The notes under the pieces: generated by a model | The model's database searches: none | What the model was told of the DNA's origin: nothing | What the model saw: the letters and a program-made list of their open reading frames with translations, nothing else | Shown here: piece by piece, positions 1,278 to 35,551 of the stretch | Position numbering within the stretch: the stretch's first letter is position 1 | Layout of the letters: each line of letters begins with the position of its first letter | Source of the DNA: a virus | Direction: 5' to 3' (one strand) | DNA length: 36,229 nucleotides | IMG/VR virus record: IMGVR_UViG_3300005253_003518 | Coordinates: 1 to 36,229 of that record | Program-made: the position numbers and the translations under genes

Positions 1278-1979
1278 TCAGGTGTCCTGCATCTGGTCGA
1301 TATTGCCCCGGTGAACGTCAAACGAGTACGCAACCAGCCATGGGTTAACGTCCCAAGCGTCAGGGCCGTGCAGGCTGTTCCAGAGCTTGTGAAACGCATC
1401 CACTGGTCCTTTCAGCGGCATCATTTCATGCTCCGTCCCGTTCGGTCCTTTGTGAATGTGCGGATCGTTTTCATCGAAAAATGGTCGGCACCCTTCGTCA
1501 ATTGCATCCGCCTCGATGATATCCTGCAACCGCTGCACCCGCGCATCCGTGACCGTCAGCGTTAGGCGGCTTGCCCAGCGTGGCATGTGCATACCCTGAC
1601 GGAAACGGCCCCACGCGGCTTGATTTGGCCAACCCCATGTCTGCTCTGAACCGTCTGCGCAATAATGGACTGGCTCCTCACCTCCCATCTGGCTCGGTGA
1701 GAGGTCATCGTAAATCAGGTCTGACTTCCAATGCTCCCGCACATAGAGACGATCCCTTGATTGGATCCGAAGCATGCCAAGCATTTTATCATGCTCATAG
1801 TCTTCCCAGACATGGTCAGCGCGTCGGAAGGTCCAGTCGTATCCTTTCGTGTCGGATACCCCGAACTGGAAGAAACCCTTATATCCCTTGATCTTCAGCA
1901 CTCGCCGCGTCTGCGTCTTGCGGCCGTCTAGTAAGGCGCGGACCATAGAGGCGCTGAACAGGATAGGTTTATCAGCCAT
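1278..1979 (-). CDS. ASCH-domain-like phage protein
   Basis: A 233-aa protein. Its N terminus (PILFSASMVRALLDGRKTQT, then RR) is a signature common in phage and prophage proteins usually annotated as ASCH-like or of unknown function. ASCH domains are beta-barrel folds related to PUA that are thought to bind RNA or modified nucleotides. Several Trp residues and a DAxDEG segment (about 158-164) fit that family. A GGAG ribosome site lies about 7 bases before the ATG. It sits in the leftward operon between an unknown gene and excisionase. The biochemical function in phage is not known. Confidence 0.7.
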   Translation of the reverse strand: MADKPILFSASMVRALLDGRKTQTRRVLKIKGYKGFFQFGVSDTKGYDWTFRRADHVWEDYEHDKMLGMLRIQSRDRLYVREHWKSDLIYDDLSPSQMGGEEPVHYCADGSEQTWGWPNQAAWGRFRQGMHMPRWASRLTLTVTDARVQRLQDIIEADAIDEGCRPFFDENDPHIHKGPNGTEHEMMPLKGPVDAFHKLWNSLHGPDAWDVNPWLVAYSFDVHRGNIDQMQDT

Positions 1980-3205: not shown

Positions 3206-5034
3206 GCCGCATCCCCCGCGATTTCATCGGGCAACCAGGCGTCGATCGCGGCGATCTGGTCGCGGGTCAATAGCAGGGCTTCTTGTGTCGATGCGTCGTT
3301 GAATAATGCTTCAAGTTCTTTGGTCTTTTCGCCCTTCTTGAGATTTCCGAACCGCTGCATCTCACTGTCGTCTTCGCCGTCTTGAATAACCAGCTTGCGC
3401 CAGATGCTGTCCAGCAGCTCAGCGCGGCAGGCCTTGAAGAAATTATCGGCTGACGGTGTCCAGATCGAGCGGGGGCTAACGCCGAGCTTGGTCATAAGGG
3501 CAAGGTTAATTTGGCTGCCGAAAGGCGCATTCATCGTGCGGACCAGTGCCTGTGACAGGACGGTGTTGCGGTGTTTCTTGCCCATGTCCTGAAACGTCTG
3601 GAAGGCCGCTTCGACATCACCGCCAAGATCGTTGATGCCACTTTTCAGGCGGGCGTCGAGATGCACATTGTCGACACTGCCGGGCGGCGTGTTTTGATCG
3701 GACACAGTGACATTGAAGGGGCCGGAATAACTGTAGATATCGTGGGACAGCTGGAAGGCTAGCAGATCCAGCGCCAGTTCTGGGTGCTTGAGCATTTCGG
3801 TCTGAAACGCGGCGCGCTGGATGATGCGCAGATCAGCGATGCCGGTCTGTGTCACCGGCGGCTTCGGTGCCACTGGAGAGGCGCTGTCGCCAGCGCCCGC
3901 AGCATTGCGGTTCTCCCGTTCCATGTAGGGGCGGCTTACCTCGATCGTTCCTTTATGCTCCACGTTAATGAACAGCGTGGCTTCGGCATATTCGTTTGCG
4001 TCGAAGTCCCCCAGCATGCGCTCTTCTAGCGCATCGATCTCGGCCAATTCCGCCTCGGAAAAGATCTCGTCGCCACCTTTTTCCATAAGACGATCATAAC
4101 GGGCTTGATCGGCTTCAGGCAGATCGACTGGATCGCGGTAAAGCTGCTGCATGCCATCAAAATGCTGATAGCCTACATAGCTCTCAAAGATCGGGATCAC
4201 ACGGGCAACACCCGCGCTTGCTTGCAGATCCTCAGCCTTCTTTGTCAACTTGGCTTTGAATAGCGTATCAATCAAATCAGCGTTGTGCAGGCGGGATTGG
4301 TCGGAGAATAGATCTTCGTCCAGTGTGCCGCCTTCTGCCAGATAGAGGACGAGACCGATGAAAATTACGCGTCGATCGTCAGACGGCACGTTGCCCTCCA
4401 TAAGCTGGCGGCGTAATTGGCTGGCGTTAAAGTTTCGGTCGGTGGCAAGCATCAAGGCATCTTGTTGTCGATCAGGTGCGCCGACGAGTGTCAGCACCTG
4501 AGCAACGTCGAGGCTAATCAAGTTGCGGCGCAGCGCGTCGATCGAGGATGGTGACAGACTGGCCAGCTTAAGGCGTCGCATCACGTGGGTTCGCGTCTGG
4601 CCGAATGCAGCAGCGATCAATTCGGGAGTGTTGCCCTGGTCTGCCATTGCAGCATAGGCGCGGATTTCTTCGGCGGGGTGGAGCGGGCGTTGCGTGGCAC
4701 CTTCAGCACCAGCCCAGCTTCGCGCCATCGTTTCATCGGTCGTGACGTGGATGGGGATTGCATCAAAGTCGATCAGTGCGCCATTTTCCAGGGCTGTGCC
4801 GTCTTTTGTGAGCAGCTCCAATGCGCGTAGTCGCCGGCCGCCAGCGACCACGCCCAGACCTTCAGAGTTTTCAAGAACATTAAGGTTCTGCATGATCCCG
4901 TTGATTTCAAGAGACTTAGCGAGGGCGGCTATATCATCCGCATCGTGGTCTTGGCGGGGGTTCAGTGGTGAAAGGTGCAGCGCGCTAAGCGGCACGGTGC
5001 GCGTGGCTTGATTGAGCGGGGTTTGGTCATTCAT
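3202..5034 (-). CDS. ParB/RepB/Spo0J-family nuclease-like DNA-binding protein
   Basis: About 610 aa. The N-terminal third is a ParB domain with NPRQDHDADDIAALAKSL followed by the ParB box VVAGGRRLRAL. A helix-turn-helix follows (NTPELIAAAFGQTRTHVMRR). This order is that of plasmid and phage ParB-like proteins, which bind DNA and use CTP in the studied members. The C-terminal half is long and acidic and I do not recognise it. The start at 5034 is preferred over an upstream ATG at 5118, which would run through the stop region of the previous gene. No partner ParA ATPase is present, so plasmid-like partition is unlikely; a regulatory or DNA-processing role in the excision operon is possible. Confidence 0.85.
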   Translation of the reverse strand: MNDQTPLNQATRTVPLSALHLSPLNPRQDHDADDIAALAKSLEINGIMQNLNVLENSEGLGVVAGGRRLRALELLTKDGTALENGALIDFDAIPIHVTTDETMARSWAGAEGATQRPLHPAEEIRAYAAMADQGNTPELIAAAFGQTRTHVMRRLKLASLSPSSIDALRRNLISLDVAQVLTLVGAPDRQQDALMLATDRNFNASQLRRQLMEGNVPSDDRRVIFIGLVLYLAEGGTLDEDLFSDQSRLHNADLIDTLFKAKLTKKAEDLQASAGVARVIPIFESYVGYQHFDGMQQLYRDPVDLPEADQARYDRLMEKGGDEIFSEAELAEIDALEERMLGDFDANEYAEATLFINVEHKGTIEVSRPYMERENRNAAGAGDSASPVAPKPPVTQTGIADLRIIQRAAFQTEMLKHPELALDLLAFQLSHDIYSYSGPFNVTVSDQNTPPGSVDNVHLDARLKSGINDLGGDVEAAFQTFQDMGKKHRNTVLSQALVRTMNAPFGSQINLALMTKLGVSPRSIWTPSADNFFKACRAELLDSIWRKLVIQDGEDDSEMQRFGNLKKGEKTKELEALFNDASTQEALLLTRDQIAAIDAWLPDEIAGDAA

Positions 5035-19224: not shown

Positions 19225-19451
19225 TGGTGATACGCCTGGTCAAGGCGTATAAAATGTATCAGGCCGGTGAGACTGCTGGTTTCAGCGAAAAGCTCGCTGC
19301 GGAGTTGATTGCGTCGAAAATCGGAATTGATCCATTGGAAGAAGCCAAGGCGAAGGCCGACGCTGACGCCAAGGCGAAAGCCGATGCAGACGTCAAGGCG
19401 AAGGCCGACGCTGACGCCAAGGTCGAAGTCACCCCAGGCAAGAAAGCTTAA
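19221..19451 (+). CDS. Small protein with AKAKADAD repeats
   Basis: A 76-aa protein, coupled to the previous gene by ATGA. Residues 1-40 hold a KAYKMYQAGETAGFSEKLAA helix, as in small phage head-tail linker proteins that begin with a VKMYNPGE-type motif. The C-terminal half is three 8-residue units of AKAKADAD type encoded by 24-base DNA repeats, followed by VEVTPGKKA. The tail is probably an extended charged helix. The exact role is unknown; its position says head or connector assembly. Confidence 0.65.
   Translation: MMVIRLVKAYKMYQAGETAGFSEKLAAELIASKIGIDPLEEAKAKADADAKAKADADVKAKADADAKVEVTPGKKA
19344..19427 (+). repeat. Three 24-base tandem repeats in a coding region
   Basis: Units start at 19344, 19368 and 19392, with a partial fourth from 19416. 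Units 1 and 3 differ by one base; unit 2 differs at a few positions. The period of 24 keeps frame, so copy changes would lengthen or shorten the protein by 8 residues. Confidence 0.85.
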
Positions 19452-33683: not shown

Positions 33684-33896
33684 TCAGACAGCTTGCGTCT
33701 GAGTGTTGATGTAAGCCTTTCGGCGCGGGCAGTATGCTACCCAGTCAGGGTTTTCCTCAGCCACGTTGGTCAGATCGTGACCCGCTGATTGGCTGCTGCA
33801 TCCAAACTTCGCAACGATGTGGCTGCGGTTGATGAATCCGTAAATCTGGAGCATTTCGCAGATCCAGTTGCGGCGCTGCTCAACGTACCAATTCAT
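33684..33896 (-). CDS. Small helix-turn-helix protein, paralogue A
   Basis: A 70-aa protein: a helix (WICEMLQIYGFINRSHIVAK) followed by KFGCSSQSAGHDLTNV and a strand pair near NPDWVAYCPRRKAYI. This is the layout of small DeoR-type winged helix domains. It is 46% identical (30 of 65 aligned positions, no gaps) to the protein at 34676-34903. It overlaps the gene before it by ATGA. It should bind DNA; the target is unknown. Confidence 0.72.
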   Translation of the reverse strand: MNWYVEQRRNWICEMLQIYGFINRSHIVAKFGCSSQSAGHDLTNVAEENPDWVAYCPRRKAYINTQTQAV

Positions 33897-34675: not shown

Positions 34676-34903
34676 TTAGGTGTTGTCGATCAGCGCCTTC
34701 GGGGCGTCTGTCGCATAGTATATTTTCTTTCGCGCGTCGTACTTCATCGCGTCGGGATTGTTCTCGTGAAATGCCCTGAAGTCATTCGCTGCTTGCGCGG
34801 TCGAAATTCCAAATTTGCGCGCCAGATGAAATCTGTTGATGAATCCGTAGACACGCAACATATCTGCTATCCACTCTTGGCGATGTGATGCAAACCAGTT
34901 CAT
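34676..34903 (-). CDS. Small helix-turn-helix protein, paralogue B
   Basis: A 75-aa protein sharing MNW, YGFINR, KFG and ENNPD-type blocks with the protein at 33684-33896 (30 of 65 residues identical). The segment HLARKFGISTAQAANDFRAF is the likely recognition helix pair. GAGG precedes the ATG. Two diverged copies in one short operon suggest duplication and separate DNA targets. Confidence 0.72.
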   Translation of the reverse strand: MNWFASHRQEWIADMLRVYGFINRFHLARKFGISTAQAANDFRAFHENNPDAMKYDARKKIYYATDAPKALIDNT

Positions 34904-34904
34904 C

Positions 34905-35261
34905 TCAGCAGACCTCGCCAGTGCCGCAATCTAGGCCGCTCTCGTCATGGTAATCGTTTGGCGCAAAGTGATTGCAGTGGACGCAGGTTGGCCAGCCTGC
35001 GTCTGTGTTACGGCCGTATTCGTGATCCTCACAGCAATCCGGGCATACTGTTTCGGCTGGATCGGCAGCAGCTAACTGAGTGTCGGCCCCGCACTTTGCG
35101 CATTTGAAAATTGGCGCGGCCAAGCCCAATGTTTCCTGTTCAGCGTTGCAGGTGCGCATTTCCTTACCGCGCCGGAATGGGTCTGCATGGATTTCTCGCT
35201 CAACAAGTAGGCACTTGGTCTCGCAGCTTATGCAGTCAAATGTGGTCTTGGGGCAAATCAT
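34905..35261 (-). CDS. Cysteine-rich zinc-ribbon protein
   Basis: A 118-aa protein with 14 cysteines. The clearest unit is CAKC (54-57) paired with CPDC (73-76), a zinc ribbon. Others are CISC (10-13) and CVHC (93-96) with nearby His. It should bind two or more metal ions and may act on nucleic acid or protein partners. A strong GGAGG ribosome site precedes the ATG. The upstream gene ends in an ATGA overlap right after a run of 12 C bases on this strand. Confidence 0.7.
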   Translation of the reverse strand: MICPKTTFDCISCETKCLLVEREIHADPFRRGKEMRTCNAEQETLGLAAPIFKCAKCGADTQLAAADPAETVCPDCCEDHEYGRNTDAGWPTCVHCNHFAPNDYHDESGLDCGTGEVC

Positions 35262-35458
35262 GTGGACCTCCGGGGGGGGGGGGTGGATTGCAACATTTCA
35301 AAGTCGATGTGGCGGTCAAGGTCGTCGCCATTGAGGACCACGTTGTCTGGCGTCAATCCCGCAAAAACGCCGCCCTGATGAATGGCATCCAAGTCTCGCG
35401 ACTTGAGCCACCGGTATCGCGCAGCATCGAGTTCTAAGCTTTCCATTTCATCGGCCAT
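35258..35458 (-). CDS. Small conserved phage protein with C-tract near its end
   Basis: A 66-aa protein. The ATG at 35458 is chosen because GAGG lies 6 bases upstream; starts at 35470 and 35503 are also open. The core LDAARYRWLKSRDLDAIHQG and FAGLTPDNVVLNGDDLDRHI are a pattern I know from many phages, without known function. Residues near the end (TPPPR) are encoded by a 12-base C run. It is the first gene of the leftward accessory operon. Confidence 0.68.
   Translation of the reverse strand: MADEMESLELDAARYRWLKSRDLDAIHQGGVFAGLTPDNVVLNGDDLDRHIDFEMLQSTPPPRRST
35272..35283 (+). repeat. Homopolymer of 12 G
   Basis: Twelve G bases on the plus strand (C on the coding strand), directly before the ribosome site of the zinc-ribbon gene. 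Homopolymers of this length slip easily during replication. One extra base would fuse the two minus-strand genes in frame; one base less would give a 12-codon out-of-frame end. It may also be a sequencing artefact. Confidence 0.8.
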
Positions 35459-35475: not shown

Positions 35476-35551
35476 TTCCATAAATCGTTCCATAAAATAC
35501 CATACGATTTAATCTCTGTCTATTGATTTATTCCATATTACGTTCCATAAA
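35476..35551 (+). repeat. TTCCATAAA repeat cluster before the serine recombinase
   Basis: TTCCATAAA occurs at 35476, 35488 and 35543, with variants TTCCATATT at 35531 and TACCATACG at 35498. Two pairs have a 12-bp period. The area is AT-rich and divergent between the accessory operon and the recombinase gene. It could be binding or crossover sites of the recombinase, or an operator and promoter region. Confidence 0.6.

Follow-up and report, generated by a model that had tools for sequence, protein, structure and literature searches.

The run of 12 C residues that is located at the junction of two small accessory genes in the virus genome analyzed here (IMG/VR record IMGVR_UViG_3300005253_003518, the full 36,229 nucleotides of which are referred to as the window) is probably a slippage-prone homopolymer in a permissive gene junction that was not selected as a switch. 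New in this analysis is the finding that the same integrated prophage is present in the Roseobacter MAG HyVt-317, where the tract consists of 11 residues. The existence of the tract is not in doubt, whereas its length may vary or may have been miscounted, as the counts of 11 and 12 fit both possibilities.

A long G/C tract at the junction of genes 1 and 2

The window sequence and the list of its runs place 12 consecutive G residues at positions 35272–35283 of the plus strand, which corresponds to C12 in the mRNA. This is the only G/C run of at least 8 residues in the 36-kb window, the second longest having 7, and a first-order Markov model predicts only about 0.0044 G/C runs of at least 12 residues per window (0.0041 for G and 0.0003 for C). 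As in phase-variable loci, the tract lies inside a reading frame, namely close to the 3′ end of gene 1, among its last codons. Gene 1 (35258..35458, minus strand, with an alternative start at 35503) encodes a protein of 66 aa from a phage domain family, and its conserved part ends with DLDRHID before the tract. Gene 2 (34905..35261, minus strand) encodes a Cys-rich protein of 118 aa with 14 Cys residues, which we designate zinc-ribbon-like on the basis of its sequence and of weak, sub-threshold zinc-ribbon matches. Neither gene could be named from solved structures or curated families. A GGAGG Shine-Dalgarno-like (SD) site for gene 2 (35267..35271, minus strand) is positioned between the tract and the start codon, 5 bases from the ATG.

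With 12 C residues, gene 1 ends with the sequence QSTPPPRRST and a TGA codon at 35258–35260, which is embedded in an ATGA stop/start overlap with gene 2 (35258..35261, minus strand). This arrangement had been described in the first-pass annotation and is confirmed in the sequence. The frame one base over reads through PPPPEVHMICPK into gene 2, with PEVHMICPK following the tract, and the fusion of the two genes would comprise 66 + 118 = 184 aa, close to the earlier estimate of about 190 aa for the product made with one extra base. The third frame ends with GGPHDLPQDHI at a stop codon (35236..35238, minus strand) that terminates gene 1 when the tract has 11 residues, as it does in the MAG copy. 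The earlier statement that this stop lies 12 codons further on is correct when counted from the tract, but it lies only about 7 codons past the stop that is used with 12 C residues.

Apart from the homopolymer, nothing about this junction is special. Among the 50 same-strand neighbor pairs in a list of 53 genes compiled by hand, 13 overlap by exactly four bases (10 ATGA, 2 GTGA and 1 TTGA), genes 1 and 2 included. Because gene 2 sits in the frame that is entered after one extra base at the ATGA overlap, a single-base insertion late in gene 1 joins the two reading frames, barring a stop codon. The property that one base more fuses two genes is thus automatic at any ATGA-type overlap, which is a caution for all phage genes that overlap in this way. 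The position of GGAGG between the tract and the ATG also makes the SD spacing of gene 2 independent of tract length, so that gene 2 has its own GGAGG with the same spacing at every length. Since gene 2 keeps its own ribosome site and the tract codes only for an unconserved tail of gene 1 (see below), a change in tract length is predicted to turn off neither of the two genes.

A second copy of the prophage in the Roseobacter MAG HyVt-317

Our scan of genome contigs identified the zinc-ribbon gene also in the Roseobacter MAG HyVt-317 (L002). Three contigs of this MAG cover the window, namely C255 (from its base 3978), C89 and C266, and since the MAG contigs carry sequence past both ends of the window, the virus is an integrated prophage. 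When C89 was compared with the window, the first 5.4 kb contained 0 mismatches and a single one-base gap, located in the tract, which has 11 residues in C89 versus 12 in the window. Across the whole prophage this is the sole difference between the window and the MAG, apart from differences confined to a tandem repeat near 19340–19406, where two contigs end. The tandem repeat (window positions 19320–19440) codes for a KADADAKAKADAD-like sequence.

The best surviving alternative to an accidental, slippage-prone run, though in our view a rather unlikely one, is that the tract does not vary at all, being an ordinary run of fixed length, and that the difference between 11 and 12 is a counting error of sequencing or assembly. 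Consistent with this, contigs C89 and C266 stop at 35322 and 35318, respectively, with 5 bases common to both and about 35 bases from the tract, which implies that the reads at this place are thin or conflicting. Moreover, the MAG contains no G/C run longer than 11, and the HyVt MAGs are reported to have been re-assembled from public short reads of 150 bases with MEGAHIT at k values of up to 145 (PMC6946796). On the other hand, a run of 11 to 12 residues was recovered at the same place by two assemblies, and the window record contains 12 residues with no sign that this number exceeds the data. It should be noted here that the values of 11 and 12 represent two assemblies, and that the window record and the MAG may or may not go back to the same source reads. 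The earlier proposal of an unstable tract or an assembly artefact is therefore upheld as a pair of alternatives, as the 11 residues in the second assembly fit either of them, and the tract is indeed unusual for this prophage. Where two assemblies disagree on the length of a tract, read data are called for before the tract is interpreted as a switch.

Absence of the tract from relatives of gene 1

The gene 1 domain was detected by tblastn in 33 phage records, all of them from Pseudomonas phages, and in 5 plasmids, and a scan of IMG/VR yielded 110 relatives, 80 of which were retained. Together with the window, L014 and L016–L019, these 80 loci formed a family set of 86 sequences, which includes near-duplicates and contains 53 distinct pairs of tail and context. 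A match to the domain was found in 85 of the 86 sequences, the exception being L014. The domain stands alone in the closest relatives of gene 1 (L005/L060) and in L141, which is from the same genus as the MAG, and it forms the end of a longer protein in other family members. It ends at the motif DLDxxID, beyond which the sequence varies; the tails are unrelated and, in 83 of the 85 members, at most 23 aa long. Conservation in the family stops before the tract and, because the domain ends there and the following sequence varies, the tract encodes only an unconserved tail, which is the only part of gene 1 that a length change alters in sequence. The AlphaFold model of gene 1 was poor (pLDDT 62, pTM 0.40), with pLDDT values below 50 for residues 60–66.

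No C run longer than 6 was present near the end of the gene in 84 of the 85 family members, the window being the exception; the tract is absent from L005/L060 and from L141, and its retention in homologous loci, as in phase-variable loci, was not observed. Likewise, no further copies of the tract were detected in IMG/VR with a flanking-pattern scan or in phages with blastn of the region. Matches were obtained in 3 of 62 same-genus genomes, namely the MAG itself, L141 (gene-1-like, no tract) and one genome with a 29-base match. The comparison with relatives, for which the first-pass annotation had called, hence counts against a conserved device.

Relatives of gene 2 and a natural fusion of the gene 1 domain

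In searches for relatives of gene 2, the genome contigs gave a single weak Cys-rich match in addition to the MAG copy, IMG/VR one weak match, the 394 family genomes one weak match apart from the MAG, and phages none. Long tails behind the gene 1 domain are found in 2 of the 85 family sequences (L065 and L128). In L065 (3001–3390), a long phage protein terminates with the domain fused to a CxxC-rich tail of 78 residues. This sequence shows that natural proteins exist in which the gene 1 domain is linked to a zinc-finger-like piece. The L065 tail is not clearly homologous to the product of gene 2 (E 0.06), and there is no homopolymer at the fusion junction. The tail of L128 has 67 residues and is devoid of CxxC motifs. 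The gene that follows the domain in L005 begins with a CxxC pair as well, yet it shows no convincing homology to gene 2.

G/C runs in the host background

To judge from the host MAG of 4.1 Mb, which contains 11 G/C runs of at least 9 residues (three of 11 and none of 12), there is no clear host-wide excess of long G/C runs; the numbers expected by chance, when extrapolated from the Markov rates of the window, are about 28 runs of at least 9 and about 2 of at least 11. Some of the host runs are located in coding linkers or between genes. These include a C11 run in the N-terminal linker of a ParB-like frame (L058, 1499–1509), a G9 run in a ScpB-like N-terminus (L048, 1501–1509), and a G11 run just upstream of a glycosyltransferase-like frame (L055, 1499–1509), all three frames having been named by eye. 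Runs of at least 12 were present in 175 of the 394 family genomes, but this number provides no clean baseline, as overlapping matches were counted and some genomes have very many; the very high counts in some of these genomes may represent poly-G sequencing artefacts.

Origin and possible roles of the tract

An accident is more likely than a genetic switch, because a change in length mostly alters the dispensable tail of gene 1. A long G/C homopolymer would have arisen among the codons for the unconserved tail of gene 1, upstream of the ribosome site of gene 2, and replication slippage could then give rise to real length variation in the population. The effect would be limited to the choice of the short gene 1 tail, namely RRST, GGPHDLPQDHI or an occasional run-on into gene 2, and the tract would persist as an accident, without selection as a switch. 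A comparable situation has been described for Propionibacterium acnes, where polymorphic runs are almost only G/C, are located between genes or affect reading frames, and are described as building up slowly along clades (PMC4746626); unlike the present case of one prophage in two copies, that study concerned cellular genes in many strains. Two points speak against an accident. With an expected number of about 0.004 in 36 kb, such a run is unlikely to be due to chance, so that a selected role keeps some weight, and the L065 protein is a natural fusion of the same domain to a Cys-rich tail.

It is improbable that the tract serves a selected C-terminal phase variation, by which gene 1 would toggle between a free protein, a protein with a longer tail and a fusion with the zinc ribbon. 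Such a switch, as suggested in the first-pass annotation, would be of an already published kind. Eight CDSs of Helicobacter canadensis are reported to carry variable 3′ poly-G tracts that are interpreted as C-terminal phase variation, and one of them, HCAN_0660, might be joined to the CDS that follows it, which the authors regarded as perhaps unprecedented (PMC2823697). The prophage tract matches those of HCAN_0660/0661 in length and base type: in both cases a poly-G of at least 10 residues is located at the 3′ end, a change of frame would merge a small downstream CDS, and both CDSs are of unknown function. The two lengths in two assemblies and the natural fusion in L065 are also compatible with phase variation. 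However, H. canadensis has many tracts with ranges of length in the reads, whereas we have a single long prophage tract in two assemblies that are one base apart; neither of the two lengths is the fused state, and the tract is not conserved. Furthermore, the L065 tail is not clearly related to gene 2, and translation of gene 2 would begin at its own start codon whatever the tract length. The idea of a selected phase or frameshift switch has thus lost ground, as relatives lack the tract, neither gene is turned off and the geometry of the fusion is generic. In the open-licence literature on phage homopolymer switches, surveyed mostly at title level, we found no phage tract that merges genes.

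We regard it as quite improbable that slippage in this prophage lets the small phage domain alternate between a free form and one that is covalently fused to the neighboring zinc-ribbon protein, with L065 as a comparable fusion that was made permanent. If true, gene merger by C-terminal phase variation, as proposed for Helicobacter, would also occur in a marine prophage.

Possible frameshifting and transcriptional slippage on the tract

The tract contains two overlapping C_CCC_CCC heptamers in the 0 frame of gene 1 (35282–35276 and 35279–35273, within 35273..35282, minus strand), which are potential −1 slip sites ahead of an overlapping −1 frame that is open and enters gene 2. This resembles the X_XXZ_ZZN motifs studied in Escherichia coli, where C_CCC_CCC is reported to be among the more efficient −1 motifs (PMC4066793), and some low-level slipping of ribosomes on the C run is plausible. 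Unlike the E. coli motifs, however, the site in the prophage has no stimulator that we could find and is not conserved among relatives. Folds of the RNA from the SD site onwards gave z-scores between −1.2 and +1.3 over ten lengths, the fold around the C run and the SD was less stable than its shuffled counterparts (z +1.7), and there was no GGAG-like upstream stimulator in the bases before the tract. One fold with a z-score of −2.4 was considered as a candidate stimulator and rejected, as it was lost when start and length were varied and is not rare in the prophage, where 9 of the 242 windows folded reach this value. The motif was found at the tract position in none of the 85 family sequences besides the window. 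A programmed −1 frameshift that yields a fixed share of the 184-aa fusion is therefore the least probable of the readings, with an in-frame motif that is relatively efficient in E. coli and leads into gene 2 on its side, and against it the missing stimulator and the absence of the motif from relatives. Slippage of RNA polymerase on the C run is unlikely, because homopolymer insertions have been reported exclusively for A/T runs in E. coli and Buchnera (PMC5574713).

Neighboring accessory genes

Two small HTH-like genes in the window (34676–34903 and 33684–33896) have similar products, starting with MNWFASHRQEW and MNWYVEQRRNW, respectively, and are likely paralogues. The first of these (34676–34903) has a match with 75% DNA identity on two Phaeobacter plasmids. 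A prophage gene of 233 aa (window positions 1278–1979) resembles a gene on the Phaeobacter inhibens plasmid pP24_g (L144, 1520–2251). Because the latter is located close to the shared HTH gene, the sequences suggest that accessory genes have been exchanged between the prophage and Roseobacter plasmids.
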